This document shows positions 897 to 34,769 of a stretch of DNA of 38,562 nt, one piece after another. Source of the DNA: Bacteroidaceae bacterium. GTDB taxonomy: Bacteria; Bacteroidota; Bacteroidia; Bacteroidales; Bacteroidaceae. The notes under the pieces are model-generated. The model was not told the origin of the DNA, did not search any database, and saw only the letters and a program-made list of their open reading frames with translations. Each line of letters begins with the position of its first letter. The stretch's first letter is position 1. The position numbers were made by a program, and so were the translations under genes. The DNA lies in contig JAFYAT010000072.1 of the NCBI GenBank assembly GCA_017540585.1, positions 1 to 38,562 on the forward strand, written 5' to 3'.

Positions 897-1212
897 ACAT
901 TACCGTTGGTCTGTCACATGACAATCTGACTGAGGTAATGTACTACATATTGAAAGGCGTTACTGACGCTTTGTTTTTGTACTTCGAAACTACCACTTTT
1001 GAATTGCATACAAAAACAAATGCAGATGTGACCTCACGGAGGTGTTGTATATACTTATCCGTAAGTGTGCTGCGAGGATTATGTGTCCTCAATGCACACT
1101 TTACGGCTGTCTATATACTTCAACGTGGGTGTTTACTCTGTCTGTTTTTTGCAAGGGCTGTGGTAGGCCTCGAAGTGGAACGGGCAGATGTTAAGCATCC
1201 ACGGCTTTTTTT
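897..1212 (+). ncRNA. Structured RNA candidate A
   Basis: This is a roughly 316-nt structured RNA candidate, related to RNA B at 34422-34769. Visible helices are a 9-bp 5' stem (896-904 with 934-942), a small hairpin around AAAGGCG...CGCTTT (953-972), a perfect 12-bp stem (970-981 with 1009-1020) enclosing the conserved loop ACTTC..GAAACT...ACTTT, and a long hairpin (1047-1118). The long hairpin is built from GTATATA/TATATAC, CCGTAAGTGTGC pairing near 1094-1106, and GAGGA/TCCTC. A terminator-like hairpin (GTGGA 1175-1179, TCCAC 1198-1202) and a T run at 1206-1212 end it. In RNA B the same helices exist with different bases, so pairing rather than sequence is conserved. It is not RNase P RNA, tmRNA or SRP RNA by their conserved cores. 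Function is unknown. Confidence 0.6.
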
Positions 1213-1389
1213 ATGTAGTCATTTACTGATATTTTTTCATTTGTTCGCTTTGGATGTTTATGCGGAAAACACGTGATGGATTTATCTGTCACACGATTAG
1301 AGAAATAAGTAAAATATAAACTAACAGATAAGGAAATATAGTGTCTTTGACATCCTTGATTTGGCTGATTAACCAGAATTAGCACTCTC

Positions 1390-1541
1390 AGAAACACATC
1401 AGTCGGACAAGCAATTGGATGTCTGCGCTCATAAGGGCGTGGACAGTCGGATTATTGTCTGATGTGGGCTTGTGCTAAGCCTTGGTTAAACATACATCCC
1501 TTCCACGCCCCCTTTTCCAAAAAAGAAGAGAGGGCTTTTTT
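1390..1541 (+). ncRNA. Structured RNA-like block C with terminator
   Basis: ACATCA (1396-1401) and GACAA (1406-1410) pair with TTGTC (1455-1459) and TGATGT (1460-1465). They enclose a GTC..CGC/GCG..GAC hairpin. A GGCTT/AAGCC hairpin follows (1467-1481). A G/C-rich, partly mismatched hairpin (1507-1535) then runs into TTTTTT (1536-1541), like an intrinsic terminator. The segment after the long hairpin (GTGGGCTTGTGC) resembles the same place in RNA B (GTGGGCTTCTGC), so C may be a shortened relative of A and B. The T run touches the ATG of a broken methyltransferase gene, which suggests a leader or attenuator. I saw no convincing promoter. Confidence 0.35.
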
Positions 1542-1676
1542 ATGTCAAAGAAGTTTACGTTCATAGATTTGTTTGCTGGAGTTAATGTTTTTGTAGAAAA
1601 ACTCCAGTTGGTTTACCATAACGTTATATATCAAAAAAAACTTTTGATATATAACGTTTTAGTGTTCTGCAAATAG
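1542..1676 (+). pseudogene. Remnant of a C5-cytosine methyltransferase start
   Basis: The reading frame begins MSKKFTFIDLFAG, the typical amino terminus and AdoMet-binding motif I (FxDLFAGxGG) of DNA C5-cytosine methyltransferases. It breaks immediately afterwards: the expected GIGGF is replaced by GVNVF, and the frame ends after 44 codons in unrelated AT-rich sequence. At DNA level it differs clearly from motif I of the intact methyltransferase at 2113-2150, so it looks like the remains of a different paralogue rather than a recent copy. It might instead be a small expressed peptide, but nothing supports that. Confidence 0.55.
1620..1658. repeat. Perfect 17-bp inverted repeat
   Basis: AACGTTATATATCAAAA (1620-1636) is followed by a 5-base loop and then its exact reverse complement (1642-1658). 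It lies at the end of the methyltransferase remnant, about 80 bases before the intact methyltransferase gene. It could be a bidirectional terminator (A and T runs flank the loop), a regulator-binding palindrome or a scar of an inserted element. Confidence 0.65.
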
Positions 1677-1737
1677 AGTTCTTTGTCTTGTAAGTTTTAG
1701 AAAAACAGGCTTTTTGTTTGTTGACTAAATTATTGAG

Positions 1738-3192
1738 ATGTTACATCAAGCCAAAACATATCTTCATACAATTTGGGGAGAAAATCCCAAACAGATTCGT
1801 GGATTAAACTATACTCTTGAACAACAAGAGGCAATTATTTATAGCCATTTGATACTTATGAACCATGGCTTTGGAGACCCTCATCCTTTTTGGAGTCTTG
1901 GTGAAAGACTTCTTGGTCTGTGGGTGGATAGTTTGATTGACGCACATTGTGAATTGACATCAATAGGTGAAGTTGCCTATATTGAGAATTTGCATGCATA
2001 TTATCGAGAAGAAGCGGATAGACTATTTTCTAATGGGAAAAGGACAAATATATTACGTCGTTTATTGCAACCATTGGGCGAAAAACATTTTAACCAATTA
2101 GTAAATGGTCATTTTGATTTTATCGACCTGTTTGCTGGTATTGGTGGCTTCCATCAAGCTATGCATTCTGTAGGTGGACATTGTGTGTTTGCAAGTGAGT
2201 GGGATAAATATGCAAGAATATCCTATGAGGCAAATTATAAAGATATTGCACCTAATCTTTTTGAGAATGATTATAGATATTTTAATTGTGATATAAATGA
2301 TGTAAGGCCTGAGGATATTCCTAATTTCGATGTTTGCTGTGGTGGTTTCCCTTGCCAAGCTTTTTCTATTGCTGGACTTAAACGGGGATTTGAAGATACA
2401 AGAGGAACTCTTTTCTTTAATATTGCAAATATCGTTAGATACAAGAAAGAACATGGGCATGCGCCTAAAGTTCTATTGCTGGAAAATGTTAAAGGTCTAA
2501 AGAGTCATGATAAAGGAAATACCTTAAGAGTAATTCTTGCAACGTTGGATGAATTGCGCTATGGTTATTGTGTTGAGGTTCTTAATGCAAAATATTTTGG
2601 AGTCCCTCAAAATAGGGAACGTTTATTTATTGTAGCTTGGGATTTAGACCAGATACCTGATGGGGATTTCAGATTCCCTTATGGTATTGACGAAGAGGGT
2701 AATGTTATTTATGAGAAAGAGCGTGTCGCGACAGATGCAAAAGAAACTCATATCTGTGACATTTTTGAGCCAAGGGCGACAATTGATGCAAGTTATACTA
2801 TAAGTGATAGAATGTGGATAGGCCACCAAGAGCGTAAACGCAGAAATAAAGAGAATGGAAAAGGTTTTGGATATTCTCTATTTCCTCCGGACGCAGCTTA
2901 TAGTAGTACAATTTCTGCTCGTTATTGGAAAGATGGTAGTGAAATCCTGATAGACCAGTCTTCTATGGGATTAAATCCTCGTAAATTGACTCCTACGGAA
3001 GCTGGTAGATTGCAAGGTTACAACATACAAGGTAATGGCTGGGAAAAAATGTGCACGGGGCTGACTACTCATGAACAGATGCCATTTAATATAGTCGTGT
3101 CAAAAAAAGAAGCATATCATCAATTTGGTAATAGTGTGGCAGTACCCGTTATAAAAAGACTTGCTGCTGAAATCGTAAAACAATTAATGTGA
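1738..3192 (+). CDS. DNA (cytosine-5-)-methyltransferase of LlaJI-like R-M system
   Basis: This 484-residue enzyme transfers a methyl group from AdoMet to C5 of cytosine in its recognition site and so protects host DNA from the adjoining nuclease. All core motifs are visible: motif I DFIDLFAGIGGF (about 127-138), motif IV GGFPCQAFS with catalytic Cys206, motif VI ENVKG (249-253), motif VIII QNRERLFIV (291-299), motif IX RKLTPTEAGRLQGY (about 415-428) and motif X QFGNSVAVP (462-470). The target-recognition region lies between VIII and IX. The first ~125 residues precede motif I and form a helical extension that simple HhaI-type enzymes lack. The ATG at 1738 is the first in frame. The gene is one base from the next gene and clearly in an operon. 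It is AT-rich relative to the metabolic genes downstream. Confidence 0.93.
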   Translation: MLHQAKTYLHTIWGENPKQIRGLNYTLEQQEAIIYSHLILMNHGFGDPHPFWSLGERLLGLWVDSLIDAHCELTSIGEVAYIENLHAYYREEADRLFSNGKRTNILRRLLQPLGEKHFNQLVNGHFDFIDLFAGIGGFHQAMHSVGGHCVFASEWDKYARISYEANYKDIAPNLFENDYRYFNCDINDVRPEDIPNFDVCCGGFPCQAFSIAGLKRGFEDTRGTLFFNIANIVRYKKEHGHAPKVLLLENVKGLKSHDKGNTLRVILATLDELRYGYCVEVLNAKYFGVPQNRERLFIVAWDLDQIPDGDFRFPYGIDEEGNVIYEKERVATDAKETHICDIFEPRATIDASYTISDRMWIGHQERKRRNKENGKGFGYSLFPPDAAYSSTISARYWKDGSEILIDQSSMGLNPRKLTPTEAGRLQGYNIQGNGWEKMCTGLTTHEQMPFNIVVSKKEAYHQFGNSVAVPVIKRLAAEIVKQLM

Positions 3193-3193
3193 T

Positions 3194-5248
3194 ATGGAAG
3201 AATTAAAGGATTTGGAGGAAATGCGTAATACTGCATCTCGCAGATTGGATACGTATAATAAAGGAAAAGATTTTGTTTTGCCTGAAATATTTAAGGCAAA
3301 CGTGAAAGATATTGGTGGTAGCCAAACTACATATAACGATTATTCTGTAATAGTAAAAACTAGTGGTGGATTAAATATTTATCTGCCAAATCAGTGGTTA
3401 TATATAGCTTCATATTTTACAGATTTTTATAATGAATTGATTCGTTATAGAAAGGTAGCTCTTAGTGTGTTTTCACCAGATAAACTTAAGGAACTAAAAG
3501 ATAATGAGCTTTCTGCTGAAGATAAAGAATCTATAGAAAAATTGGATTTGTCTGAGCAGTCTAAGACATATCTTATTGTTTTTATAACAGATTATTCTTG
3601 GTGGTCTGGTGGTAAAACTGTTGATAGACAGGATTTCTTTAATTCTCCAATTTTAAATAGTTCAAAGTTGGTAAATGTGTCTCAAACATATGTTGCAGAT
3701 TTATGTGCATTTCTTGCAGATAAACCTGAACTTGTTGAGGCTATTATTGAAAGTGCAGAAGCGGCACAAAAAGAAAATATTCTGCCTCAAACAGATTTTC
3801 CTCTCCAACAGATATACTATGGTGCTCCTGGTACAGGTAAATCGCATGTGGTAAAGGCTATGACGGAGGGGAAAAAGGTTATCCGTACCACCTTCCATCC
3901 TGATAGCGATTACTCTACATTTGTGGGTGCATACAAGCCAACTACAGGGCTTCTGCCTATATGTAATGAATTGGGACAACCTATCAAGATTGGCGAGAAT
4001 GTTTTGCATAAGGAACAGATTGCATACGAGTTCGTGCCACAGGCTTTCTTGCAGGCATACGTTAAGGCTTGGGAGTTCTATGCAGAGGCTTCAGAGGATG
4101 AAGAACCAAAGGCGCAGTTCCTCGTGATAGAGGAAATAAACCGTGGTAACTGTGCTCAGATATTCGGAGACCTTTTCCAGTTGCTTGACCGTAATGCGGC
4201 AGGGTTCTCTGACTATCCGATAAATGCTGATAAGGATATGGAGAAACAGCTTGCTAAGATGTTCAACGGAATGCCCCCAATACCTATGGCAGACAGCATA
4301 AATGCCCTGTATGGCAAGGATGTGGTAAGTGATGTCGTTTCGGGTAAGATTCTTTTGCTTCCAAATAATCTCTATATATGGGCAACCATGAATACGAGCG
4401 ACCAATCGCTTTTCCCTATCGACTCTGCCTTTAAGCGTCGTTGGGATTGGCAGTATATGCCTATTTCTGATGCAAAGAAGGGTTGGCAGATAGAAGCGAA
4501 TGGAAAGCGTTATGATTGGTGGCAATTCCTCCAGAAGATAAACGACAAGATAGAGGCGGCTACATACTCGGAGGACAAGAAACTTGGCTATTTCTTCTGT
4601 AAGGCTAAGGATGGTATTATTGATGCAGAAACCTTTGTCGGCAAGGTGTTGTTCTATCTCTGGAATGATGTATTCAAGGACAATAGTTTTGATGACGACA
4701 AGACGTTGTTTACGGATGAAGATGGTACTCCTCTTTCTTATCATAAGTTCTATACCGTTGATGACAATGGTAACGCAAAGATAGCAGAAGACAAGGTTGT
4801 GCTGTTGCTTAAAAACCTTGGTTTGTTGCCTGTGGAAGAGAGTGAGATAGAAGATACTGAAGAGGAAGAAGATGAAGATGGAAACACTCTTTCTTCTGGA
4901 AAACGTAACTATGATAAATTCTCTGTTAATGGTAATGGTAGTTATGGAAAGAACCTTCTGGCATCTGAATGTATGAAAGAGTATATCAGACTTAATCCAG
5001 AAATGCCAGTTAATGAGGTTTATGCTAATTGGCAAAAACTTGGAAACATAGTTCCGCATTTTGTGGAAACAAAAGAAGTCTATGAGGCACGAACAGATAT
5101 AAATAAACGAACAGTAGAGATTCCTTGTGGAGATTCCGTGATTTATGTTGAGAAAAACGGATATGGAAATAATGGAGCGGTTGAAGCTTTAATTAGTGCC
5201 GTTAACAAACAAGATTGGGGTATAATACTTGCAAGGATTGAAGGATGA
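3194..5248 (+). CDS. McrB-like AAA+ GTPase of restriction system
   Basis: This 684-residue protein is the probable NTP-driven motor and DNA-recognition subunit of the restriction complex. An N-terminal region (about 1-200) is probably the DNA-binding part. It is followed by an AAA+ domain with Walker A GAPGTGKS (210-217), the McrB-type Walker B IEEINRGN (312-319), sensor-I MNTSDQSL (about 399-406) and an FKRRWDW arginine segment. A very acidic stretch (EEEEDED) lies near residue 555. In McrBC this GTPase activates a separate nuclease subunit, and the next gene fits that role, overlapping by 4 bases (ATGA). Composition is mosaic: the part before ~3820 and the part after ~4860 are more AT-rich than the AAA+ core, which suggests exchange of the flanking domains. 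Confidence 0.88.
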   Translation: MEELKDLEEMRNTASRRLDTYNKGKDFVLPEIFKANVKDIGGSQTTYNDYSVIVKTSGGLNIYLPNQWLYIASYFTDFYNELIRYRKVALSVFSPDKLKELKDNELSAEDKESIEKLDLSEQSKTYLIVFITDYSWWSGGKTVDRQDFFNSPILNSSKLVNVSQTYVADLCAFLADKPELVEAIIESAEAAQKENILPQTDFPLQQIYYGAPGTGKSHVVKAMTEGKKVIRTTFHPDSDYSTFVGAYKPTTGLLPICNELGQPIKIGENVLHKEQIAYEFVPQAFLQAYVKAWEFYAEASEDEEPKAQFLVIEEINRGNCAQIFGDLFQLLDRNAAGFSDYPINADKDMEKQLAKMFNGMPPIPMADSINALYGKDVVSDVVSGKILLLPNNLYIWATMNTSDQSLFPIDSAFKRRWDWQYMPISDAKKGWQIEANGKRYDWWQFLQKINDKIEAATYSEDKKLGYFFCKAKDGIIDAETFVGKVLFYLWNDVFKDNSFDDDKTLFTDEDGTPLSYHKFYTVDDNGNAKIAEDKVVLLLKNLGLLPVEESEIEDTEEEEDEDGNTLSSGKRNYDKFSVNGNGSYGKNLLASECMKEYIRLNPEMPVNEVYANWQKLGNIVPHFVETKEVYEARTDINKRTVEIPCGDSVIYVEKNGYGNNGAVEALISAVNKQDWGIILARIEG

Positions 5249-7587
5249 GAATTGTCTTTGAACAGCATCAATATGACGAGTCAGATATAAAGAATGACTT
5301 GGCAGACATCTTTGAGTTGCAGGATGTAAACAAGAAGGTCAGCATTAGCTATGTTGGCTACTTTTACAGCCCGAAACTCAAGGATTGCGTGTTCATATTG
5401 CCAAAGGTTCTGCTCAAGGATAAGGACGGAAGGGAGGTTATTGCTGATGTTCCTCAATATGTGGACAAGGATGGCAATAGTCGTGACGTTACGCCTGAAG
5501 ATATAATCTCACAGGAGGGGCAAAAGAAGTTCCTCAAAGGTGAGTACCAAAAGTTCATATATGAGTTTGCCGTATGGATTTATCGCTCCTTGGACGTGTA
5601 TAGGAGGCTGAATCCAAATACGACAGCCATATATTACCGCCAGTTGCCACAAGAGGGCAGGGGTAGGCGACATCATGCCCAAACGTATCTTGACATCATC
5701 CTCTCATTGATTAGGTTCAACCAGGAAAACAGAAACTTCTTCACATTCACGATAAAGAACCTTCATCGTGGACTTAACAAGATAAACTGGAACAGGACTA
5801 TAAGTCGTTCGCAGATGTTCCTGCAGGATGACTCTCCCATCTATATTAAGCCTGTGAACAAGAAGAAGGTAATAAACATGGACGAGGAACTGTTTATTAT
5901 TTTCTTCAGCATCCTCAAATTCCTTAATGACAGCTATGGATTCAAGACTCCAATAAACTGTATGTACGAGTTGATTACGGGCAGTAAGTTTGAGGCGTAC
6001 CGTAAGGGGCTTGGCAAGGTTAGGCTTCGCCAGATAAAGTACAAGTATTTCTCCGACAAGATGCTGGAACTATGGAATTTGTGCTATGTCTTCTTTGATG
6101 CTTCGAAAGAGATGGCTATACATACGGAACAGAAGGAGTATCTGTTGGCAAAGAACTACGAGCATGTGTTTGAGGCGATGATTGACGAGCTTATTGGCGA
6201 CAGGAACATTCCGAGGGGTCTCAAGGAGCAGGATGACGGAAAGCGTGTTGACCACATGTACACATACGATGCCCTTACTTCGAGCAATGATGACGACGAC
6301 CAGATATACTACATTGGCGACTCAAAGTATTACAAGAGTGGTCATAAGCTGGGACGTGAGTCAATATATAAGCAATACACGTATGCAAGGAACGTGATAC
6401 AATGGAACATAGACCTGTTTGTGAACGGCAAGAGTAGCAGCTGGGTGGACGAGACTGACTATGAGGCTGACCAAAAGGACTATGGCAAGATACGTCTTCG
6501 TGATGATGCTAAAGACCCATTGACGGAGGGATATAATGTGATTCCTAACTTCTTCCTGTCTGCATACGTCAATGCGAACCGTGAGTATGTGGAGGATTGT
6601 AATATCCGTATCCATGAGAATAACGGACAGCATGCCACATACATTTCGTACCAATGGGAAAACAGGCTCTTTGACCGTGACACGTTGATTCTCTCGCATT
6701 ATGACGTGAACTTCCTATATGTCATTTACCTTTATTCGCGCAACAAGAGCAACGAGAAGGCTATGTGGAGGGAGAAGGTGCGCAAGATGTTCCGTGACGA
6801 GATAAGGAAGGTTCTGGCAGATAGGTTCGACTTCTATGCCATGAAGAGCCTTGGCAATCCTATTGCAGGTGAGCAGTTTGTGAAGGAGCATTTCAAGGAG
6901 CTACAGGGTAAGCTGTACCGTCCTTATGGTGACAAGAACCTGTATGCCTTGGCTCTTGAAAAGAAGGATGGAGTGGATAATGCTTCGTCTGACTTGTACC
7001 AGATGCTTGGCGATTATTTTGTCATAAGCAAGGTTGACCTCGGCTATAATCCTAATGATGACTTGACGAATGAGGTTGTCAAGTATCAGCAGGAGCATCC
7101 ATATCAATCCATACCTACCGACTGGTTGCCAGAATATCATATTGAGAGGTTCAAGTCTGATTATGTCGTGGTCGGAATGTATCATGACCAAGAACATTGG
7201 GACTGGATAACGGGCAAGAACGACAGGGGCTCGTTGATATATAACGTGCGACTGGACAAGAGCCGTAAGGGTGCGCAGACAAGGAGTCAGTTACGCCAGA
7301 TGAAGGCTAAGTTTGCCATTCTTTATGAGGAGGGTAAGGATGTCAATGCGTATCATGTGTTCCGAATACATGATACTGCCGTCATGTCGGAGGAGCGAAT
7401 GACAAGGGCGATGTACCCTCAGAATCATGGAGGACCGAAGGGTGATTACTTCATCTACCGTTTTGATGATGAAGTGACGATAGGTCGCTATGACATTAAC
7501 AAGTTGATTGCATCAAGGGAGAATCATGTGAATGGCGCACCAATATACCTAACCTGTGAGGAGTTGATGGAGTTTCGAGTTCAATGA
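5245..7587 (+). CDS. LlaJI-family PD-(D/E)xK restriction endonuclease
   Basis: This 780-residue protein is the probable nuclease subunit working with the McrB-like GTPase. The N-terminal part (SYVGYFYSPKLKDCVFILP) and overall layout resemble the LlaJI restriction endonuclease family. The likely nuclease core is IGDSKYY with Asp359 and Lys361, preceded by an Asp-rich run. The ~400 residues after it are not assigned. A segment near residues 640-760 (GMYHDQEHWDW, KGDYFIYRFDDE) could be a recognition or regulatory domain, but I cannot name it. The ATG overlaps the previous stop, so the two are translationally coupled. LlaJI in Lactococcus likewise pairs methyltransferases with McrB-like and nuclease proteins. 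The target site cannot be read from sequence. Confidence 0.8.
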   Translation: MRIVFEQHQYDESDIKNDLADIFELQDVNKKVSISYVGYFYSPKLKDCVFILPKVLLKDKDGREVIADVPQYVDKDGNSRDVTPEDIISQEGQKKFLKGEYQKFIYEFAVWIYRSLDVYRRLNPNTTAIYYRQLPQEGRGRRHHAQTYLDIILSLIRFNQENRNFFTFTIKNLHRGLNKINWNRTISRSQMFLQDDSPIYIKPVNKKKVINMDEELFIIFFSILKFLNDSYGFKTPINCMYELITGSKFEAYRKGLGKVRLRQIKYKYFSDKMLELWNLCYVFFDASKEMAIHTEQKEYLLAKNYEHVFEAMIDELIGDRNIPRGLKEQDDGKRVDHMYTYDALTSSNDDDDQIYYIGDSKYYKSGHKLGRESIYKQYTYARNVIQWNIDLFVNGKSSSWVDETDYEADQKDYGKIRLRDDAKDPLTEGYNVIPNFFLSAYVNANREYVEDCNIRIHENNGQHATYISYQWENRLFDRDTLILSHYDVNFLYVIYLYSRNKSNEKAMWREKVRKMFRDEIRKVLADRFDFYAMKSLGNPIAGEQFVKEHFKELQGKLYRPYGDKNLYALALEKKDGVDNASSDLYQMLGDYFVISKVDLGYNPNDDLTNEVVKYQQEHPYQSIPTDWLPEYHIERFKSDYVVVGMYHDQEHWDWITGKNDRGSLIYNVRLDKSRKGAQTRSQLRQMKAKFAILYEEGKDVNAYHVFRIHDTAVMSEERMTRAMYPQNHGGPKGDYFIYRFDDEVTIGRYDINKLIASRENHVNGAPIYLTCEELMEFRVQ

Positions 7588-7645
7588 TAAATGGCTGGTT
7601 CACGGAGGTCTTTATGGGAACGAAAGGTAAAAAGACAGGGGGGAA

Positions 7646-8239
7646 TTATTGTTTCATAACAACTGGTTTTACCCTGTTTTTCTTTGTTTTTATCTGTTTT
7701 TTCTTCGTCCGCACCTTGGGTGCGATACCTAAATAGCCATTCGGGATAGTGCCGCTTTCCGCAGCCATGCACGAGTCGCTATCCTCGTCAGGCAACAGGT
7801 AAGGAGACGAGTGGTCCTGAAGATACATGTGATTAAGAGTATAGGCAAGCGACTCAAGGGTGTTGTCGCGTACCGAGGGCTTCAGCTCACATTCCCATAC
7901 CGTGATGCTGTGCCATCCCATGCTCACCAGCTTCTGCTGTTCCTCCTTGTCACGCTCCTTGTTACGGGCAATCTTCCTCACCCAGAAATCTGTGTTCGAC
8001 TTAGGCACGGAATAGTACCTGCATCCCTCGTGTCCGTGCCAGAAACAGCCATTCACGAAGATGCACGTACGGTACTTGCGGAGCACAATGTCAGGATGCC
8101 CCGGCAGTCGTGCATCATTCACACGATAGCGGAAGCCCTTTGCCCACAAGAACCGCCTCACCACCATCTCCGGCTTCGTATTCTTGCCCTTGATGGCAGC
8201 CATATTATTATGCCTCTGTGACTGAGTCAACACATCCAT
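7646..8239 (-). CDS. vsr: Very short patch repair endonuclease (Vsr)
   Basis: Vsr nicks next to T:G mismatches made when 5-methylcytosine deaminates, so it repairs mutation hot spots of the neighbouring methyltransferase. The 197-residue protein shows the family start (SQRHNNMAAIKGKNTKPE), PGHPDIVL with metal-binding Asp50, FVNGCFWHGHEGC with the histidine cluster (His68, His70), NTDFW with the following KIARNKERD, and VWECEL. The usual Vsr length is about 140-156 residues. The extra C-terminal ~45 residues are low complexity and Lys-rich (KVRTKKKQIKTKKNR), and their codons come from an interspersed repeat (7663-7730), so the original stop was probably lost. The gene converges with the nuclease gene, 58 bases apart. 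Confidence 0.92.
   Translation of the reverse strand: MDVLTQSQRHNNMAAIKGKNTKPEMVVRRFLWAKGFRYRVNDARLPGHPDIVLRKYRTCIFVNGCFWHGHEGCRYYSVPKSNTDFWVRKIARNKERDKEEQQKLVSMGWHSITVWECELKPSVRDNTLESLAYTLNHMYLQDHSSPYLLPDEDSDSCMAAESGTIPNGYLGIAPKVRTKKKQIKTKKNRVKPVVMKQ
7663..7730. repeat. TTCTTCGTCCGC hairpin repeat, copy inside vsr
   Basis: The block CCTGTTTTTCTTTGTTTTTA, then TTTTTTCTTCGTCCGC and the small hairpin CGCACCTTGGGTGCG, matches the reverse complement of 25983-26050 over its whole length with few changes. A shorter third copy is at 26055-26090. Here it lies within the 3' end of vsr. Confidence 0.75.
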
Positions 8240-8252
8240 CTGAATAAAATGT

Positions 8253-8260
8253 CAAATTTA
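8253..8260 (-). promoter_or_regulatory. Minus-7 promoter box of vsr
   Basis: On the minus strand TAAATTTG matches TAnnTTTG and lies 13 bases before the vsr ATG. No clear TTTG box is seen at the expected spacing, so this is a moderate call. Confidence 0.4.
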
Positions 8261-8280
8261 TACAAAAATTACAGCGTAAA

Positions 8281-8595: not shown

Positions 8596-8648
8596 ACGTT
8601 TTGTTATTTCTGGTATCATGATGATACCTGTTAGACATTATTATGATG

Positions 8649-8656
8649 CAAAAATA
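8649..8656 (-). promoter_or_regulatory. Minus-7 promoter box of antitoxin gene
   Basis: On the minus strand TATTTTTG fits TAnnTTTG and is followed by CATC, as in many Bacteroidales promoters. It lies about 30-55 bases before the two possible antitoxin start codons. Confidence 0.4.
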
Positions 8657-8739
8657 AAATATTTTGCTGATAAAACGTCCCTGTCTTTCGCTAAAATTGA
8701 AACACAACCGTTATTTTTCTCCCCAAAATGACCTTCTTT

Positions 8740-9168: not shown

Positions 9169-9190
9169 CATACATATATAGATAAATGCA

Positions 9191-26790: not shown

Positions 26791-26866
26791 TTATCTTGCT
26801 ATCTCTTGATGAAAACTGGAATTCTTATTGACACTTTTCTGAAAAAAATCTTTGGTTTCTAAAATC

Positions 26867-29740
26867 ATGAATATTATGCAAACTTGTAATTATTTGTCCA
26901 TACTTATTGTTCTTCTGTCTTTGTCGTTTAATTTGAAGACGGAGGCTCAGAACAAGCAACACATGTTCTATCTCAGAGGTTCTGTTTATGACAGCTTCAC
27001 GGGAGCTGGCATAAAGGATGTCAAAGTATATATGATGAACACGGATAGTGTCATTCTTGATAGTGCAACAGTCAGATATGGCAGATATAATAGTGGTGGA
27101 ATAAATGGCTATGATGCAATGTTTTCTTTCTATACGTCTAAACAGAAATCGAACGACGTTAGGATTATCAAGGTTGTTCATAAAGACTATTATACGGTAT
27201 ATCATAATCAGTCATTGAAGTATGTTGGAAAACAACAGGGATTTGATATGCCAAAGATTTACATGAAGCATAAGAACAGCTTTGCAGACAGACTATTGAA
27301 TGATGTAGAGGTTACTGCAACGAAGGTCAAGGTGTATTATAAGGGTGACACGATTGTATATAATGCAGATGCGTTTAATGTCGCAGACGGTAGCATGTTG
27401 GATGCTCTCATCAAACAGATGCCTGGCGTGGAACTTGACAAGCAAGGACAGATATTTGTGAATGGCAGGAAGATTGACAATCTTCTTCTCAATGGAAAGG
27501 ATTTCTTCAAAGGTAACAGCAAACTGATGTTGGAGAACTTGCCATACTATGCGGTAAAGGATATCAAGGTTTATAACAAGACAAGAGATAAGGCTATTGC
27601 CCTTCATGATGAAAATGCCATAAAGGATTTTGTCATGGATGTGTATCTCAAAAGGGAATACAGCAAAGGATATATGGCTAACGTGGAAGCTGGAGCTGGT
27701 ACGGAGGATTCATATCTTGGCAGATTGTTTGGATTACGTTTTACGGATTTTTCTCGTTTCGCAATCGTGGGAGGAACGAATAACGTGAATATGCGTGACT
27801 ATTCATCTAATGGAAACTGGTCGAATAGAGGAGCACGTGAAGGACGTACTACGAGCAAGTTGCTCACGGCAGAGCTTCTTACGGAAACAAAGAAACGTAA
27901 GAATGTGCTGACTATGGAGGCTACACACTCGAAGTCAAAGAACGGAGCGGATGAATATCAGGAAACATACCATAATAATGATGCGAGTACATATAGTGTT
28001 AATCGAGATTTGTCCGATGTGAAGAACCTGAATGTATCTGCCAGCAATCATTTCACCCTTAAATTGCCAGTTTGGTTTGAGAGTGTTACGTCCCTGAAAT
28101 ATGGTGACAATAAGAATAATACAGACGAGCTATACTGTAATTCGGATAGTGATATGTGGCACGATGGAGCTATTGGTATGCTTGACTCTTTGTTTAGGGC
28201 AGGTGTGTCAATTAATGACCCGTCGCTATATAATGCACGTAACATGGCGAATGACCGTAAGACAAAAACATATAACGCAACACAGAGTTTTTCTTTTGCT
28301 CAGAATGTTTTTACTGGTGATATTGTCGATTTTAATACAGCCGTGAACTACATGAGGTCTGATGTGGATGCTTTGAGAAAGAATATGTATCTTACATTTG
28401 TTCCTGCATATAGTCTGGAGGAGATAAAGGAGTCAATAGATAAGCCTGCAACTGCCTTTGGAGTAGATGCAGGACTGTCGTACAGGATTAAGCGTCTGTT
28501 CCCAAAATCAGAACTTTCTGTATATGCACGATATTCCTACAATCATCTCAACGATGATGAGGCAATAAATGATATGGCTACATCTCTGAAGGACTTGATG
28601 AATAGCTATGAACGTCGTGTGAATGATAACAATTATGCTGTGGGCATAAGATATGGTTACTATTTTAACAATTTTAGGGATAAGGACAGAGTACTAACTC
28701 GAATAGATATTGATGTCCCTGTAGCTTTTAGAAACATAAGAACAAGATATAATCGTTATACGCTTGACACATGTCTTGTACAGTCTCATTGTTATGTTGA
28801 ACCAACAATGTCTTTTATAAAAGAGAAATGGCCAAGGGGCCAAGCCACAATTCCTGTACGGAGCCTGAAGATAAACACTTCCTTGAAATATTCTGTTCCT
28901 GATGCCCTTCGACTCGTTACTTTGCCTGTCACTTCGGACAAGATAAATATCGTCAATGGTAATTCGAGTTTGAAGCCATCATCTGTATGGACATCGAGTA
29001 TAGAGGGATATCTGCCAATGAAGCAGAAAAACGCATACCTTTTTCAAAACATATCATATAGAATGTTCATCAACCGTATCGTGAATACGTATAGGTATGA
29101 TGCAGGTGTTTATACCCATACCCCAAAGAATATTGATGGAACATGTGATATTGCATATACGGCAAAGGGACAACATATTATTTGTAAAAAGACTTTGAAA
29201 TGGACTTTTAATGCTGATTATAAAGAGATGGCAAACTTTGTGGCAGACGGAGTCGGAGGAGATTCAAAGAGGATGGATAATAACGAGTTGTATCTGTATT
29301 TTTCTCCAGAATTCTATACAATATTCGCCAATAGATATTACTTTGAATTTGTTGGTAGTGTTGATTGGAGAAAGCCTATGAGTGACAGAGTGTATTCTGG
29401 TTTTAATGATACATGGACATATAAGTTTGGAGTGGATTTAACTGCGAAACTATTTGCAAAGATAGATTTCAGTACAGATATTTATTACATTAAACGTAAT
29501 GGATATGTCAACAACGAATTGAACCGTCCTATGTATGAATGGAACATGTATTTATCACGTTCTTTCTTGAAAGATAAACTTTGTCTTAAACTGAAAGCTA
29601 TTGATATTCTCGGTCAGTATAAGAGTGTTGCATATATGATAAACGAACAGGGAGTGCGTGAGACTCATACAATAACTCTGCCTGACTACATTCTTCTTAC
29701 TGCAAGTTATAGGTTTAACAAACAGCCTAAAAAGAAATGA
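26867..29740 (+). CDS. Large TonB-dependent-receptor-like outer-membrane protein
   Basis: From the ATG at 26867 this protein has 957 residues, with a signal peptide ending near TEAQ. It has an N-terminal carboxypeptidase-regulatory-like region (YLRGSVYDSFTGAGIKDVKV) and a plug (LNDVEVTATKVKVYYKGDTI, DALIKQMPGVELDKQGQIFV, NGRKIDNLLLNGKDFF). A barrel to the C-terminus follows (LLTASYRFNKQPKKK). This is the 'outer membrane beta-barrel / TonB plug' type common in Bacteroidales; a small cargo or surface role is possible and no SusD-like partner is adjacent. Two earlier in-frame ATGs exist (26852 gives five extra residues); 26867 gives the better signal peptide. No clear promoter box was seen. Confidence 0.82.
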   Translation: MNIMQTCNYLSILIVLLSLSFNLKTEAQNKQHMFYLRGSVYDSFTGAGIKDVKVYMMNTDSVILDSATVRYGRYNSGGINGYDAMFSFYTSKQKSNDVRIIKVVHKDYYTVYHNQSLKYVGKQQGFDMPKIYMKHKNSFADRLLNDVEVTATKVKVYYKGDTIVYNADAFNVADGSMLDALIKQMPGVELDKQGQIFVNGRKIDNLLLNGKDFFKGNSKLMLENLPYYAVKDIKVYNKTRDKAIALHDENAIKDFVMDVYLKREYSKGYMANVEAGAGTEDSYLGRLFGLRFTDFSRFAIVGGTNNVNMRDYSSNGNWSNRGAREGRTTSKLLTAELLTETKKRKNVLTMEATHSKSKNGADEYQETYHNNDASTYSVNRDLSDVKNLNVSASNHFTLKLPVWFESVTSLKYGDNKNNTDELYCNSDSDMWHDGAIGMLDSLFRAGVSINDPSLYNARNMANDRKTKTYNATQSFSFAQNVFTGDIVDFNTAVNYMRSDVDALRKNMYLTFVPAYSLEEIKESIDKPATAFGVDAGLSYRIKRLFPKSELSVYARYSYNHLNDDEAINDMATSLKDLMNSYERRVNDNNYAVGIRYGYYFNNFRDKDRVLTRIDIDVPVAFRNIRTRYNRYTLDTCLVQSHCYVEPTMSFIKEKWPRGQATIPVRSLKINTSLKYSVPDALRLVTLPVTSDKINIVNGNSSLKPSSVWTSSIEGYLPMKQKNAYLFQNISYRMFINRIVNTYRYDAGVYTHTPKNIDGTCDIAYTAKGQHIICKKTLKWTFNADYKEMANFVADGVGGDSKRMDNNELYLYFSPEFYTIFANRYYFEFVGSVDWRKPMSDRVYSGFNDTWTYKFGVDLTAKLFAKIDFSTDIYYIKRNGYVNNELNRPMYEWNMYLSRSFLKDKLCLKLKAIDILGQYKSVAYMINEQGVRETHTITLPDYILLTASYRFNKQPKKK

Positions 29741-29815
29741 TGAACTCGTATGTTGAATAATGTTGATGAAAAAGTATATCTGCAATCTTCTCTTTTGCTT
29801 AAAAAGGTAATTCTT

Positions 29816-29847
29816 TTTGGTGCTTTAGATTAAAAGCAGTACCTTTG
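29816..29847 (+). promoter_or_regulatory. Promoter of DUF3160 lipoprotein gene
   Basis: TTTG (29816-29819), 20 bases, then TACCTTTG (29840-29847) matches the consensus exactly. It would produce an unusually long leader of about 165 bases consisting largely of the tandem repeat at 29881-30013. Confidence 0.7.
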
Positions 29848-29880
29848 TTGCATACACAGAAAGATGTATAATACGGTGTT

Positions 29881-30013
29881 GAAAACTTACAAACTTAAAA
29901 ACTTAAGAACTCAAGTCCGCGAGAACTAAAAAACTCACAAACCTAAAAACTTAAAAACTCAATAACGCGAGAACTAAAAAACTTACAAACCTAAAAACTT
30001 AAAAACTCACAAA
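29881..30013 (+). repeat. 48-base tandem repeat in leader of DUF3160 gene
   Basis: CGCGAGAACTAAAAAACT starts at 29918 and 29966, a period of 48 bases, and each unit continues as ACAAACCTAAAAACTTAAAA. A partial unit precedes them. The same words (CGCGAGAACTTAAAAACTTA) occur at 405-424, just before the smalltalk ATG. G is almost absent from most of the repeat, so the transcribed leader would be largely unstructured. Confidence 0.75.
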
Positions 30014-30021
30014 CTTACAAT

Positions 30022-32550
30022 ATGAATAAATCAATATTGACTATTCTTGCCGCATTAAGTCTATGTGGTTGTAGCGGTAGCTCTTCGCAATCATCAAATG
30101 AGGATGACAGCGAAGTGGTAGGAATGAGTATTGAGGACTACCAGACGAACAAGACATTCTTCATGATAAGGGATGACAAACTCCCTAAGAAGGTTAATCT
30201 AAAGCAGAGCATCGAGGGACTCTCTTACCAGAATCTTCGCTTGCTCCGCAGTTATGTATATGCCGTTCATGGACATTGGTTCATGGAGGGTGACCTCAAC
30301 TCGTTCTTTACCAATCATACTGACTGGTATGAGGACGCTTGTCTGAAAGCATGGTTCAAGGACTATGGCTCAAAGCAGGACTGGTGGGATAGCACGACAG
30401 AACTTCAGAAGAAATATATGGAGATGTACGATAAGGACTACAAGAAGACATACGGCCTTATCAAACTCTCCAAGGAAGAGCAGGACTTTGTGGATGCCAT
30501 CGACAAGCGTATGGACGACCTTCGCAAGCAGGGCAAGGTCAAGTCGCCAGATGGAGTGGAAATCCTCAACTCCAACCTTGCCATCAATATGTATCAGGTG
30601 AACGACCCAAGTAAGCGTATGCTTAATATGCTTGCACAGTATAATGCAGCCATAGAGCCATCCAACTACGAGCAACTCTTCAATGTGTATGAGAATAATG
30701 ACTATCTCAGTATGCCTAACTTTGTTACGACTGACGTGATGCTCCAGCTCTATCACATGTACTTCAGCTACATTCTCAAGACACTTGAGGGCGACGAGAT
30801 GAACAAGTGTCTCTATTCTGCTGTAGAGGAATTGATGGTGGAGAGTGCCAAGGCTACTGGCGAGGGCAACGAGCTTGCTGCGGCACAGGCTTCGTGGAAT
30901 ACGACATTCTTCTCCGTAGCCATGAATCTTCTCGGACATAATCCGAGTGAGGTGGCAGGCAAGCATAATATAAACCTCCATTCGGCAATGGGTGAGTATC
31001 AGAAAGCCTTTGACGAGGAATGTGAGAATGTCAGGGCAGAGAAAGATGCAGAGTCCTCTCTCTTCGACCTTGACGGCAAGGCGTTTATGTACAGCCTCTT
31101 CAAGCCACGTGGTCACTACACTCGTAAGGAGAGTACACGACAGTATTTCCGTACAATGATGTGGTTGCAGAAGGGATGCCTCATGCGTGAAGAATCGCTC
31201 CAGCTCCGTCAGGCAATAAGCATGGCGCAGTTGCTCAACCGTTGTCCTAAGGCTCGCAAGAACCTTGACAGAATCAATTCTGCCATCACGTTCCTTATGG
31301 GCGAACCAGACAACGTGTCAATCATGGAACTTGCCGACTTCATCGCCTCAAAGGGTTATAACGGCACAATATCAGACAACGAGTACCGCAGCATCAACTC
31401 ATGGCTCAAGGATAAGTTCAAGACACGCAATCGTATCAAGCCTAAGCAGCAGATTGGTGCTCAGGATCAGTTGAACCTTATGCCACAGCGATATATGTTC
31501 GACAGCGAGATTCTCGGTACGATGTATGACCCTAAGCCAAATGCCGACCGTGCCTATCCTTCAGGTCTTGACGTGATGGATATCCTCGGTGTACAGACAG
31601 CAACAAATGTGCTTGACGAGTTCTACAACAAGAACTGCCCTTGGGCAGATTACAAGAAGGAACGTACAAAGATTAAGACTGCCCTCAACGGCAAGATTGA
31701 CTGGGACAAGACCATCTACAACAAGTGGATGAAGACTCTTGTCGAGCTTCAGAAGAAGGACAAGAACCAGCCAGGATTCATGAAGACGGAGATGTGGGGC
31801 ATCAAGAACCTCAACACGGCTCTTGCTTCATGGGCACTCCTCAAGCATGATGCCATCCTCTATGGCGAGCAGCCTCTTGGAGCTGAATGTGGCGGAGGCG
31901 GCGAGTTCCCTGACCCTTATCGCTATGGCTATGTTGAGCCTAACATCAAGTTCTGGGAAGAGATGCTGAAGTGTATCGACCTCACGGAGAGTATGCTCAA
32001 GAAGACAGGCTTTGCCGACGAGAAACTCTCGGATAAGGCTTACCAGCTCCGTAGCATGACAGAGTTCCTGCTCGAGTTCTCAAAGGATGAACTTGCGGGC
32101 AAGCCTATCGACCAGGGACGCCATGCAACGGTAATATATATTGGAGGTGCAATCGAGAATATCACACTCGGACTTGTTGACCCGGATATCACGTTTGACA
32201 CATGGGATCAGGTCAAGGGTGCTGACCGTAGCGTTGCTCAGGTGGCTGACGTATTTACACGTAACATCCTTGGTTGCGAAAAGCAGGGAATACTCCATGA
32301 GGCTACGGGTAATGCCAATATCATCTATGTGATTGTGAACATAGGTGGCGAGTACCGTCTCACACGAGGTGCGACATACAGCTACTATGAGTTTGTGCGT
32401 CCTATGGACGAGCGCCTGAATGACGAGGAGTGGCAGAAGATGATTCTCGACAATAAGGCTCCAAACGTACCTGAATGGTTTGCTCCTTGGCTGCTTGGCG
32501 GCAAGAAGGTTGATTGCGACCAGAGGTTCGTATATGGTAGTGGATGCTAA
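30022..32550 (+). CDS. YARHG / DUF3160 domain lipoprotein
   Basis: This 842-residue protein has a lipoprotein signal (LAALSLCGC; lipid-modified Cys17). A YARHG-type domain follows (about 67-105: SYQNLRLLRSYVYAVHGHWF, then FFTNHTDWY). The remaining ~650 residues match the DUF3160 pattern (NYEQLFNVYENNDYLSMPNF, FVTTDVMLQLYHMYFSYIL, then GGEFPDPYRYGYVEPN, HEATGNANIIYVIV). It is expected on the cell surface or in the periplasm; its activity is unknown. The start codon follows the repeat leader directly. The gene is more G/C-rich than its flanks and looks like core genome. Confidence 0.87.
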   Translation: MNKSILTILAALSLCGCSGSSSQSSNEDDSEVVGMSIEDYQTNKTFFMIRDDKLPKKVNLKQSIEGLSYQNLRLLRSYVYAVHGHWFMEGDLNSFFTNHTDWYEDACLKAWFKDYGSKQDWWDSTTELQKKYMEMYDKDYKKTYGLIKLSKEEQDFVDAIDKRMDDLRKQGKVKSPDGVEILNSNLAINMYQVNDPSKRMLNMLAQYNAAIEPSNYEQLFNVYENNDYLSMPNFVTTDVMLQLYHMYFSYILKTLEGDEMNKCLYSAVEELMVESAKATGEGNELAAAQASWNTTFFSVAMNLLGHNPSEVAGKHNINLHSAMGEYQKAFDEECENVRAEKDAESSLFDLDGKAFMYSLFKPRGHYTRKESTRQYFRTMMWLQKGCLMREESLQLRQAISMAQLLNRCPKARKNLDRINSAITFLMGEPDNVSIMELADFIASKGYNGTISDNEYRSINSWLKDKFKTRNRIKPKQQIGAQDQLNLMPQRYMFDSEILGTMYDPKPNADRAYPSGLDVMDILGVQTATNVLDEFYNKNCPWADYKKERTKIKTALNGKIDWDKTIYNKWMKTLVELQKKDKNQPGFMKTEMWGIKNLNTALASWALLKHDAILYGEQPLGAECGGGGEFPDPYRYGYVEPNIKFWEEMLKCIDLTESMLKKTGFADEKLSDKAYQLRSMTEFLLEFSKDELAGKPIDQGRHATVIYIGGAIENITLGLVDPDITFDTWDQVKGADRSVAQVADVFTRNILGCEKQGILHEATGNANIIYVIVNIGGEYRLTRGATYSYYEFVRPMDERLNDEEWQKMILDNKAPNVPEWFAPWLLGGKKVDCDQRFVYGSGC

Positions 32551-32576
32551 AAATAGTCACGTCTAATTTTTGTGAG

Positions 32577-32682
32577 CATGAATTATCATTAATTTGCCAC
32601 GAATTGTCATTAATTATTTGACGTTACAAACAACGACGAAAAATTATTTATAATGATTCGTGGCAAATTTATGGTAATTCGT
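32577..32682. repeat. MITE-like inverted-repeat element, copy 3
   Basis: CATGAATTATCATTAATTTG (32577 onward) is complementary to the right arm (about 32647-32682, ending ATTTATGGTAATTCG) over about 35 bases with a few mismatches. The inner part TGCCACGAATTGTCATTAAT matches copy 1 (TGCCATAAATTGTCATGAAT). It fills the gap between the DUF3160 and CapA-like genes. Confidence 0.6.
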
Positions 32683-32711
32683 TAAAACTTAATACGTATT
32701 ATTGGTGTGGT

Positions 32712-33644
32712 ATGAAACGATTCATGTTCATAGCATTCGTAGCACTTCTTTGCTCATGCAATAGTGGTGAACACAAGCAAGCGGGAGAGACTGCGTGCGA
32801 TTCCCTTGAACTTGTGTTTACTGGAGACCTGTTGCTCGACCGTGGTGTGCGTCCCCTTATCGAGCGACATGGCATCGAGTGGCTTCTTGATAGCGTGTCT
32901 CCATTGTTCTATAAGGCTGATGCCGCTATTGTCAATCTCGAGTGTCCGCTTACGGATGTGACGACTCCCCAACCCAAGCAGTTTGTGTTCAGTGCCGATA
33001 CACGTTGGGCGGACGACCTGCACAAGGCTGGCATTACGCACGCTTCGATGGCTAATAACCACAGCATGGATCAAGGCATACAAGGTTTGCGCTCCACATT
33101 CGAGTCGCTTACCCGTGCTGGCATCGTTCCTATGGGATGTGGCACGACTCCCGAAGAACGTATAGCCCCAGTCGTTGTACGTAAGGGCGACCTTGCTGTG
33201 GCTATATTTTCGAGTGTGCTCTTCCCGATAGAGAGCTGGTTCCCTAATCCCAAGGGACAGTATTCTCCATGTCAGGCAGGTGTCGAAGAACTGTCTGCAA
33301 GCATCCGTGAGTATAAGGCAGGTCATCCCACACATCGTGTCGTTGCCTATCTCCATTGGGGTGTGGAGTACCAGGAGATGCCTACGCCTTCTCAACGACG
33401 ACAGGCAGCCAGTCTTGTCTATGCAGGAGCAGATGCCGTCATCGGTCATCATCCCCATGTCGTAGAACCTATGGGTAGGATAGGCGGCAAACCTGTATTC
33501 TACAGTCTTGGTCATCTTGTCTTTGACGGTACTCGTCCCCAGACACGTCGTGGACAGATTGCCCGCCTCGTCATTCGTCCCGACACCCTCCTTGCCGAAG
33601 GCATCGACATCAGGATTGACAGGTGCAAACCAGTGCAGAATTAA
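32712..33644 (+). CDS. CapA-family lipoprotein (metallophosphatase-like fold)
   Basis: This 310-residue protein has a lipoprotein signal (FVALLCSC; Cys16). It then carries the family motifs FTGDLLLDRGV (about 36-46), NLECPLTDV (about 75-83), ANNHSMDQG (about 116-124), YLHWGVEYQ (about 214-222), IGHHPHVVEP (about 241-250) and FYSLGHLVFD (about 259-268). CapA/PgsA proteins take part in poly-gamma-glutamate capsule synthesis in Bacillus. Here there are no pgsBC partners, so the specific polymer is unknown and a general envelope phosphoesterase-like role is possible. Confidence 0.9.
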   Translation: MKRFMFIAFVALLCSCNSGEHKQAGETACDSLELVFTGDLLLDRGVRPLIERHGIEWLLDSVSPLFYKADAAIVNLECPLTDVTTPQPKQFVFSADTRWADDLHKAGITHASMANNHSMDQGIQGLRSTFESLTRAGIVPMGCGTTPEERIAPVVVRKGDLAVAIFSSVLFPIESWFPNPKGQYSPCQAGVEELSASIREYKAGHPTHRVVAYLHWGVEYQEMPTPSQRRQAASLVYAGADAVIGHHPHVVEPMGRIGGKPVFYSLGHLVFDGTRPQTRRGQIARLVIRPDTLLAEGIDIRIDRCKPVQN

Positions 33645-33675
33645 GAGTTAAGATTTAATACGATTCTGAAACATA

Positions 33676-33927
33676 CCACCTTGCGGTGGAAATTTTGACA
33701 GAACTCGCTCCCTTGTGGGAGCTAAACTGAAATGTTTTTTTTTCTGAACCCGCCGCCTGGGGCGGCTAAATTACCAATCTACGCAATCTTTCAAACAATC
33801 TTTCCAATTTTATTCTTTTTGCAAAAACAGAAAAATAAAGATGCTAAGATTGGATTCAAGATTGCGTAGATTGCGTATTTAGCTCCCACAAGGGAGCGGG
33901 TTCTTAAAAATCCACCGCCAGAGGTGG
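33676..33927. repeat. Composite REP-like repeat, copy 3 (large inverted pair)
   Basis: Palindromes CCACCTTGCGGTGG, GCTCCCTTGTGGGAGC and GCCGCCTGGGGCGGC lie on the left and GCTCCCACAAGGGAGC and CCACCGCCAGAGGTGG on the right. CAATCTACGCAATCTT (left) and AAGATTGCGTAGATTG (right) face each other in the middle, so the whole block is a large inverted pair. Single parts match the repeats at 8740-8883 and 11351-11470. Confidence 0.75.
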
Positions 33928-34384
33928 AAATGTCAGTTTCGTACTTAAGCCTTCGTATCGTTTTATCATTCTGTCATGAAAAAGTAAGGATTATTATCTT
34001 TGTGTCACACGGCCATCCTCCGTCAATCCTTCGCTAATGTCTCGTGCATTTTTCGTAATTCTTTCGTGAATCATCAGGTGACATTATGTCACTTAGATTT
34101 TGTGAACAATACATCTTCATCCGAGCCTTGTCCTAAAGTTCAAGGTCAGTAGTTAGTCAATACTTTGTCAGTACTTTGTCTATACTACATATGTACCTGT
34201 TTCGTGATTATAACGAAAAACCATTATCCTTTTTTGACTTGTGTGTTTTTCGCTATCTTCGTTCACATAAACAATAAGTCTATCTTTTAGCTTTTAATTT
34301 TTAACTTTTAACTCCGAAGGTCGGGATGGGGCCGCTCATTATGATGTTTTATAACCTTTTTTTGTAATATTTCATATTCAAATG
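33928..34384. other. Gene-free region before RNA B
   Basis: I find no gene. Around 34150-34190 TCAATACTTTGTCAGTACTT-type words repeat and match the reverse complement of 23069-23105. Around 34290-34312 lies a TTTTAATTTTTAACTTTTAA run. The rest is AT-rich unique sequence. Confidence 0.45.
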
Positions 34385-34416
34385 TTTGGCAGTAAAGGAT
34401 TACTTTCATAACTTTG
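34385..34416 (+). promoter_or_regulatory. Promoter of RNA B
   Basis: TTTG (34385-34388), 20 bases, then TAACTTTG (34409-34416) is a perfect Bacteroidetes promoter. The minus-7 box is the same eight bases as at RNA A, and both are followed by GTRGC or TAGC. Confidence 0.75.
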
Positions 34417-34421
34417 TAGCG

Positions 34422-34769
34422 ATTTATGCACGGAAGCCCATCTTGAGATGGGTGGATGTGGGTAGATGGCACTTCGTTATTGGAGTGCTGACATAGTTAA
34501 AGGCGTTTTCTGCGCTTTGTTCTTGACTTCTTGAAACTTCGCAACTTTCTTTAATAGACAAGACAAAGACGACTGAGAATGTCCTCGGGTGGATTATATC
34601 CATGTGTGTACAGCAATAATTGTATCCTTGCATGAGGGTACAATTGTTCTGTACACTATACACATATATAATCACATGGCGTGGGCTTCTGCAGTTGCTT
34701 GTTCTTCTATTAAGGGTATTGCGAAGACCTCAAGAGGTGGGACGAGTAACGGGACTCCCCGCCTTTTTT
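34422..34769 (+). ncRNA. Structured RNA candidate B
   Basis: This ~348-nt RNA candidate has the same layout as RNA A. It has two 5' hairpins (CCCATCT/AGATGGG near 34438-34453; GCACT/GAGTGC near 34469-34488), then AAAGGCG/CGCTTT (34499-34518). A stem CTTTGTTCTTG with CAAGACAAAG (34515-34525 with 34559-34568) encloses the conserved loop ACTTCTTGAAACTTCGCAAC. The long hairpin 34592-34673 is built from GATTATAT/ATATAATC, GTGTACAG/CTGTACAC and AATTGTA/TACAATT. A conserved AAGGG...GACCTC block leads to the terminator. The gene 53 bases downstream has no visible promoter of its own, so B may be its attenuating leader; a trans-acting RNA is equally possible. Function is unknown. Confidence 0.65.
34736..34769 (+). 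terminator. Intrinsic terminator of RNA B
   Basis: GGTGGG (34736-34741) pairs with CCCGCC (34758-34763). Inside it GAGT pairs with ACTC, and TTTTTT follows directly. This is the strongest terminator in the window. Confidence 0.85.

Follow-up and report, generated by a model that had tools for sequence, protein, structure and literature searches.

A large, many-copy leader RNA of Bacteroidales with covarying alternative helices around a predicted terminator

The leaders of surface-polysaccharide and other long operons include EAR (epsC, RF01735) and antitermination signals of the JUMPstart/ops type, and RNA antitoxins (type III, abiF-like) are RNAs followed by one kind of toxin gene. In Bacteroidetes, the motifs of a survey published in 2010 are structured RNAs bounded by a promoter and a terminator. 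Bacteroidales-1 (RF01693), Bacteroid-trp and Bacteroides-1 are among the motifs of that survey (PMC2864571). A 108-bp candidate from a survey of the human microbiome, HMP2_1881, is reported as occurring mostly in Bacteroidetes, near radical SAM domains, and as expressed in all of its 13 occurrences (PMC8040213). Here we analyse a structured RNA found in two copies, A and B, on a contig of a Bacteroidaceae bacterium (JAFYAT010000072.1, positions 1 to 38,562 of the forward strand; this whole stretch of 38,562 nucleotides is called the window). In our judgement its best and simplest reading, drawn from sequence and predicted structure, is that it is probably a bistable transcription attenuator, a leader that precedes the gene it serves and can adopt either of two folds, each excluding the other.

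Both copies proposed by an earlier note on this DNA are present, on the forward strand, and can be aligned end to end. Copy A covers about 898-1212, from a start estimated 7 nt after the TTTG of a promoter-like TAACTTTG (884-891) to the end of a T-run, and copy B covers about 34423-34769, from an estimated start behind the identical TAACTTTG (34409-34416) to the end of its T-run. We take this sequence to be the Bacteroidetes -7 box, the consensus of which is TAnnTTTG. The parts listed by the note as common to A and B, namely AAAGGCG/CGCTTT, a next stem made of differing bases, a long hairpin and the T-run, recur in our alignment. The computed folds have z-scores of -7.78 (A) and -10.26 (B), with 0 of 100 shuffles equally good in either case. 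The 5' core of A (951-1043) contains the helix P2, P3 (970-981 x 1009-1020), the P3 loop and the P6 strand GCAGA (1022-1026), while that of B (34497-34590) contains P2, P3 (34516-34525 x 34559-34568) and a P6 strand around 34568-34575, and is followed by a long variable hairpin, P5 (GGATTATATCC..ATATAATC, 34591-34673), visible in the computed fold and in the sequence. The P3 loop is itself paired, ACTACCAC with GTGGTAG in A and ACTTCGCAAC with TTGCGAAG in B; since it pairs with a region near the 3' end, the AAGGG..CCTC block belongs to the long-range 3' strand. In the resulting rod, the loop strand ACTTCGA..ACTACCAC of A (981-996) meets GTGGTAG (1160-1166) and TCGAAGT (1170-1176), and the loop strand ACTTCTTGA..CTTCGCAA of B (34526-34544) meets TTGCGAAG (34719-34726) and TCAAGAGGT (34730-34738).

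The claim of two copies holds for the window but not for its genome (3.62 Mb, 149 contigs), in which blastn with A and with B found further copies and a covariance model of the 5' core, R1, built from eight of the genome's own copies, finds 11 strong ones (E<=2.5e-8); R1 matches A at 951-1043 (E 4.6e-18) and B at 34497-34590 (E 8.0e-22). At E<=1e-5, R1 matched 40 of 45 genomes of the genus (the window's own included), with up to 15 copies each. In an evenly spread sample of the order, 23 of 247 genomes, belonging to 20 of 174 genera, gave a match, and in a sample of the phylum a single one of 296, which was the window's own genome; at the laxer E<=0.1, 30 of 41 relatives matched, including all 24 other genus genomes in that set. 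The note's suggestion of a Bacteroidales RNA agrees with this restriction to the order in the two samples. When named genomes were searched with a pattern of the 3' part, at least 119 stretches matched; 77 of the 80 matches listed carry Bacteroidales-type labels, and the other three are labelled Clostridium, Firmicutes and Lachnospiraceae, possibly as mislabelled bins. Among the matches listed are two cultured and named species, Prevotella ihumii (L112) and Bacteroides caecigallinarum (L147; L and G numbers denote loci and genomes). Six contigs of a viral collection match the 3' pattern as well. Copy B had no blastn match in phage and E. coli collections, and the L112 copy none in a plasmid collection; an origin from phage, plasmid or E. 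coli was rejected on these results of one query per collection. In G034 and G040, two genomes from other families, R1 has several weak matches ~80-90 nt long (E 1e-4 to 0.02, L040-type contexts), which are possibly unrelated repeats. L009 and L010, which looked like chance matches within coding sequence, were discarded, and the copy counts leave aside reverse-strand R1 matches at true copies, in which a hairpin is matched in mirror image.

From the pattern search, 51 of 125 loci were run through R1 (34 inspected before selection, 17 not) and all matched; L117, L207, L220 and L223, which by eye are without the 5' half, were not run. The copy set of 42 + 51 = 93 was reduced to 88, each with a T-run, by dropping five that were without it, disrupted or cut (L077 is disrupted, L116, L123 and L224 differ in their 3' flank, and L145 is truncated at a contig end), and then to 83 by removing five near-duplicates (L082, L087, L089, L174, L225); the T-run position was set by hand in 18 copies after the automatic choice had failed. 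Judged by the position of the box, the RNA is 280-375 nt long, with a median of 317 (66 copies). A 112-aa open reading frame (ORF) at 938-1276, over copy A, has no common start, stop or sequence counterpart among the 83 copies, so the coding reading was dropped and the element is taken as non-coding.

That the fold is selected and kept by compensatory changes, as the note proposed, is supported by a swap test, by a G-test on column pairs and by counts of covariation within helices. The swap test, which requires no alignment, compares the pairing of a strand with its own partner and with the partners of other copies in the set of 83. For the P3 loop and the 3' region, own partners gave -33.0 kcal/mol versus -15.8 kcal/mol when swapped (z -40.5) and were best or tied in 73 of 83 copies. 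P9, the helix between the terminator 3' strand and the stretch after the T-run, reached z -12.2 (own partner ahead of the average swapped one in 74 of 83), P6 -8.5 (64 of 83) and P7 -5.2 (59 of 83), and the control regions gave -0.1 (83 copies) and +1.2 (82 copies). A G-test on column pairs ranks those of the P3-loop helix first, at up to 37 standard deviations, with indirect couplings between non-pairing columns lower. Canonical pairs make up 95.2% of rod-1, with 242 double-changed cells, and 97.2% of rod-2, with 98; the corresponding values are 89.2% and 37 for P2 (GGCGUUUAC x GUAGAUGCC), 87.0% and 48 for P3, 87.9% and 36 for P3a, 97.6% and 19 for P6, 90.3% and 27 for P6ext, 97.5% and 56 for P7, 88.8% and 43 for the local terminator stem, and 93.1% and 17 for the upstream terminator stem GCGUGGG x CCCACGC. 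For no helix did any of 300 shuffles come up to the canonical fraction observed. A third segment of the rod (a68-74 x b70-79) aligns poorly and was excluded from these counts.

Complementarity extends beyond the T-run into the stretch that precedes the gene. In many copies this stretch resembles a hairpin, the loop of which mirrors the terminator 3' strand in letters that vary by copy (CGGCUCC/GGGGCCG in L219, CGGACCU/AGGUCCG in L215, CAGUUCCCA/UGGGAACUG in L103, GAAUCCC/GGGAUUC in L092); by eye, L088 and some others have no mirrored stretch. In copy A, GGATG (1252-1256) within the stretch at 1244-1265 can, by eye, pair with the terminator 3' strand (P9/P10), and in copy B TTGGGGAGG (34794-34802), likewise by eye, is complementary to CTCCCC of that strand (P9).

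Several of these helices share strands. Five bases of a putative switching strand, c', are claimed by both P6 and P7, and the adjoining ones by both P6ext and P7; in A, c' is TCTGTCTGTT (1137-1146), which can pair with GCAGA (1022-1026) in P6 or with AACGGGCAGA (1179-1188) in P7, and in B it is CAGTTGCTTGTTC (34692-34704), with its P6 partner upstream and GACGAGTAAC (34741-34750) as its P7 partner. The 3' strand of P3 lies either in P3 or in the rod, and rod-1 overlaps the local terminator stem at b106-107, the first bases of the terminator 5' strand. The terminator 3' strand, which is AAGCATCCACGGC (1193-1205, before the T-run 1206-1212) in the terminator region 1170-1212 of A and GACTCCCCGCC (34753-34763, before the T-run 34764-34769) in the region 34730-34769 of B, has two possible 5' partners and a third, downstream one in P9. 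P6/P6ext versus P7, P3 versus the rod, and rod-1 versus the local terminator stem are mutually exclusive sets of helices, each of them covarying, and the covarying stem together with the T-run predicts an intrinsic terminator between RNA and gene. A simple H-type pseudoknot was dropped for the P3-loop pairing after the pairing had been computed; this pairing lies together with P6 in a single nested arm, and P2 alone would be in a pseudoknot with that arm.

In the first of the two proposed folds, P6, P6ext and the rod helices would join the 5' core to the 3' part, and the rod would tie up c' and the first bases of the terminator 5' strand, letting the polymerase read into the gene. In the second, the local hairpin P3 would form and c' would be freed for the terminator region (P7), and P7 with GCGUGGG x CCCACGC or with the local terminator stem would bring about a stop at the U-run. 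The choice between them probably depends on a small molecule, on a protein or on how fast transcription proceeds. After read-through, the freed terminator 3' strand could be caught by the loop ahead of the start codon (P9/P10), which would hold the first fold; since this partner is transcribed after the terminator, it comes too late to affect the termination of its own polymerase, and its possible roles are to keep the read-through fold in place or to influence translation. We infer termination and read-through in cells, as well as the fold favoured by the signal.

A number of observations weigh against such a switch. When pairing was computed along the growing transcript, with pseudoknots excluded, the rod stayed stable once the terminator was complete, with values >0.5 for P6 in 74/83 copies, rod-1 in 72/83 and rod-2 in 76/82, and at the same stage P7 exceeded 0.5 in only 3/83, the local terminator stem in 9/82 and the upstream stem in 3/82; before the 3' part exists, P3 exceeds 0.5 in 39/83. 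Because the rod alone is favoured at equilibrium, the case for the terminating fold comes from covariation together with an assumed kinetic effect, such as fast folding, or an assumed bound ligand. In the swap test, own partners were best or tied in only 4 (P6), 1 (P7) and 5 (P9) of 83 copies, versus 73 for the rod. The helix shuffles ignore the relatedness of the copies, and for the upstream terminator stem one shifted register gives 20 double changes versus 17 in the true one. The scan also lists other short conserved 'helices' outside the model, as is P11 (b54-63 x b80-89), a covarying alternative for c' with 23 double-changed cells. Finally, the downstream genes have no pathway in common and hence suggest no signal. 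With these points counted, a bistable attenuator is still the reading that we favour.

The nearest downstream ORF (>=50 aa) lies on the same strand in 69 of the 70 copies with enough sequence among the 83 non-redundant ones, the nearest upstream ORF in 39 of 72, and the downstream ORF starts at a median of 87 nt after the T-run (at 30-120 nt in 44 of 69). This arrangement, together with the competing terminator helices, points to a cis-acting 5' leader of the gene that follows; cis position combined with competing covarying helices is well supported. The free-standing RNA gene in two copies implied by the note is not supported, given these counts, the many-copy family and the competing terminator helices. 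Its broader form is unlikely, namely a gene with its own promoter and terminator that merely adjoins other genes and whose structured RNA acts in trans or belongs to a ribonucleoprotein. It would suit the promoter-like box (TAnnTTTG stands 40-125 nt ahead of the core in 68 of 93 copies versus 5.0% in shuffles, with several UpxY-preceding copies among the 25 without it), the T-run behind nearly every complete copy, the large and complex fold and the many copies per genome, but it does not suit the orientation and spacing of the downstream ORFs, which show that position is not independent of the gene, the covarying complementarity that runs past the T-run toward that gene, or the competing helices around the terminator.

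Our survey of downstream proteins covered 81 of 84 listed, each the first ORF of at least 100 aa (L100, L162 and L212 were omitted for length), so that shorter genes directly behind the RNA, peptide precursors for instance, escape it. In Pfam these 81 include nine C5 DNA methyltransferases, five BspA-type leucine-rich repeat proteins, three PAPS reductases, three DUF2971 proteins, two LytTR and two radical SAM proteins, and in NCBIfam four UpxY antiterminators and two PapB-type radical SAM maturases; in PADLOC, the 25 families listed of 124 are all methyltransferase models. Short peptides resembling precursors of ribosomally synthesized and post-translationally modified peptides (RiPPs) lie, by eye, directly behind L061, L062, L064 and L073, and the first gene behind copy B is a 72-aa ORF (34823-35041, forward strand) whose translation has no Pfam family. 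The downstream genes are varied, and it is variety that we claim, not enrichment. Given this variety among the 81 proteins, in which the largest family has nine members, an association with restriction only or with toxin-antitoxin systems was rejected, as was an RNA antitoxin ahead of a toxin gene, there being no single toxin-like partner. A leader-peptide attenuator was also set aside: the longest ATG-initiated ORF per copy ranges from 6 to 300 codons, and no common start, stop or sequence, hence no conserved short ORF, was seen in the 83 copies. An invertible promoter was rejected from the two window promoters, the only ones examined, as the stretches surrounding those of A and B contain no inverted repeats of >=13 bases.

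Processive antitermination, in which the RNA would bind RNA polymerase and make it resist its own and later terminators, we regard as improbable. The element leads long operons (restriction-modification, the capsule regulator UpxY), genes of UpxY-family antiterminators follow it in 4 of 81 cases and the computed rod is stable and compact, all of which speak for such an RNA, but no scanned locus has an Rfam match to elements of this type, and the alternative terminator pairings suit a local switch rather than a processive element. We give least credence to a short terminated RNA controlling the translation of its own gene, in trans or in cis, by pairing its 3' strand with the loop before the start codon. 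P9 is indeed related to its locus and sited between terminator and start codon, but this reading leaves the competition of rod and terminator unaccounted for, P9 follows equally from holding the read-through fold in cis, and its own partner being best or tied in 5/83 indicates weak specificity between copies.

Behind copy A, at 1738-8239, lies an operon with a C5 methyltransferase, an AAA_5 ATPase ORF, a 780-aa ORF that matches no Pfam family and an opposite-strand Vsr endonuclease, to judge from these genes a probable restriction-modification system. At seven of the nine methyltransferase copies there is a second conserved, attenuator-like element (~190 nt) after the first RNA, with its own terminator at the start codon: it lies at 1345-1541 of the window (forward strand) and at L071, L082, L083, L089, L096 and L098, its T-run touching the ATG. 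It too has a competing helix, GGGCGUGGA x UCCACGCCC; in the window, GGGCGTGGA (1435-1443) x TCCACGCCC (1502-1510) stands against a terminator ending in GAGAGGGCTTTTTT (1528-1541), as aligned over the seven loci. L099 has no second element, and at L076 the T-run and the start of the gene are 83 nt apart. In blastn the element matches at full length (84-100%) in 7 of 41 genomes, one copy each and always behind an R1 match; an eighth match, in G022, is partial and weak (74%) and not behind a listed R1 match. Such methyltransferase operons would have two attenuators in series. At 1542-1676 of the window, ATGTCAAAGAAG... codes for the beginning of a C5 methyltransferase, about a dozen residues (MSKKFTFIDLFAG, as in L098), before unrelated sequence takes over (a 44-aa ORF), and the intact methyltransferase ORF starts at 1738; the segment looks like a recombination remnant. 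Beside it, at 1620-1658, is a perfect inverted repeat, AACGTTATATATCAAAA..TTTTGATATATAACGTT.

A few copies are broken or joined to other DNA. In L207 (5260) and L220 (4517), compared with L112, shared foreign DNA precedes the 3' half of the RNA from about GTTGCTCGTT; in L207 an ORF that by eye resembles a tyrosine recombinase lies ~270 bp from the junction, and in L220 the downstream gene is the same as behind the intact L112 copy of Prevotella ihumii. The RNA gene seems to be a target of integration. In L101, L116, L123 and L224, the terminator stem is followed at once by sequence of the TTGAAC/CTGAAC type in place of the T-run. L101, L116 and L224 also have a TGATAATCA motif close by, and another element has possibly joined the RNA at its 3' end; by eye, the flanking sequence available for these four contains no integrase. 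The L077 copy is broken within its 3' part (1240-1300), with other DNA after GCGTGGGCTCTG. Elsewhere in the window, a long AT-rich inverted repeat (hairpin) at 32577-32683 lies behind a DUF3160 gene and has a weak match to a microRNA model in the Rfam scan; an AT-rich stretch near 170-350 resembles it.

A wider interpretation, which we offer tentatively as possible rather than probable, is that this RNA represents a new class of signal-sensing leaders, a modular switch that gut and rumen Bacteroidales share among accessory genes for restriction-modification, RiPPs, capsule regulators and surface proteins, in up to 15 strong copies per genome, with a complementary post-terminator hairpin that holds the 'on' fold and, on restriction-modification operons, stacked with a second, unrelated attenuator. 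If this were true, a sizeable set of Bacteroidales accessory genes would answer to one RNA-sensed signal that has not yet been named, and with dozens of natural variants, some of them in cultured and named species, both switch and signal would be directly testable.

The note had named no known family for this RNA, and the comparison with Rfam 15 (4227 models, cmscan) leads to the same result: at E<=1 the window has four weak matches, none overlapping A or B, and at E<=5 seventeen further loci (copies or 3' parts) have weak matches to unrelated families only, on which an Rfam assignment was rejected. No matching description was found in the available text of the open-access literature, including PMC8040213, PMC6429828, PMC2864571 and PMC7366714, so the leader family is apparently undescribed, in the sense of being found neither there nor in Rfam 15. 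The motifs of the 2010 survey are likewise structured RNAs from the same taxa, but their Rfam models have no match in the window (E<=1) or at the 17 loci (E<=5), a comparison that excludes Bacteroides-2 and GUCCY-hairpin. HMP2_1881 shares with it the vicinity of radical SAM proteins, the peptide maturases behind 2 of 81 copies; compared by description only, it may be unrelated or a fragment of the present family. EAR and the JUMPstart/ops-type signals resemble it in leader position and in the presence of UpxY genes among its targets (4 of 81), but differ in that Rfam gives no match, that most of the present targets are other genes and that the present element is ended by a terminator of its own. 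With riboswitches and attenuators it has in common the 5' leader position, the terminator with a U-run and the covarying alternative helices that share strands, whereas it is unusually large (~317 nt), stands in up to 15 strong copies per genome before unrelated genes, and has a complementary stretch behind its terminator (P9), a covarying partner strand in a place that is, to our knowledge, unusual for an attenuator.

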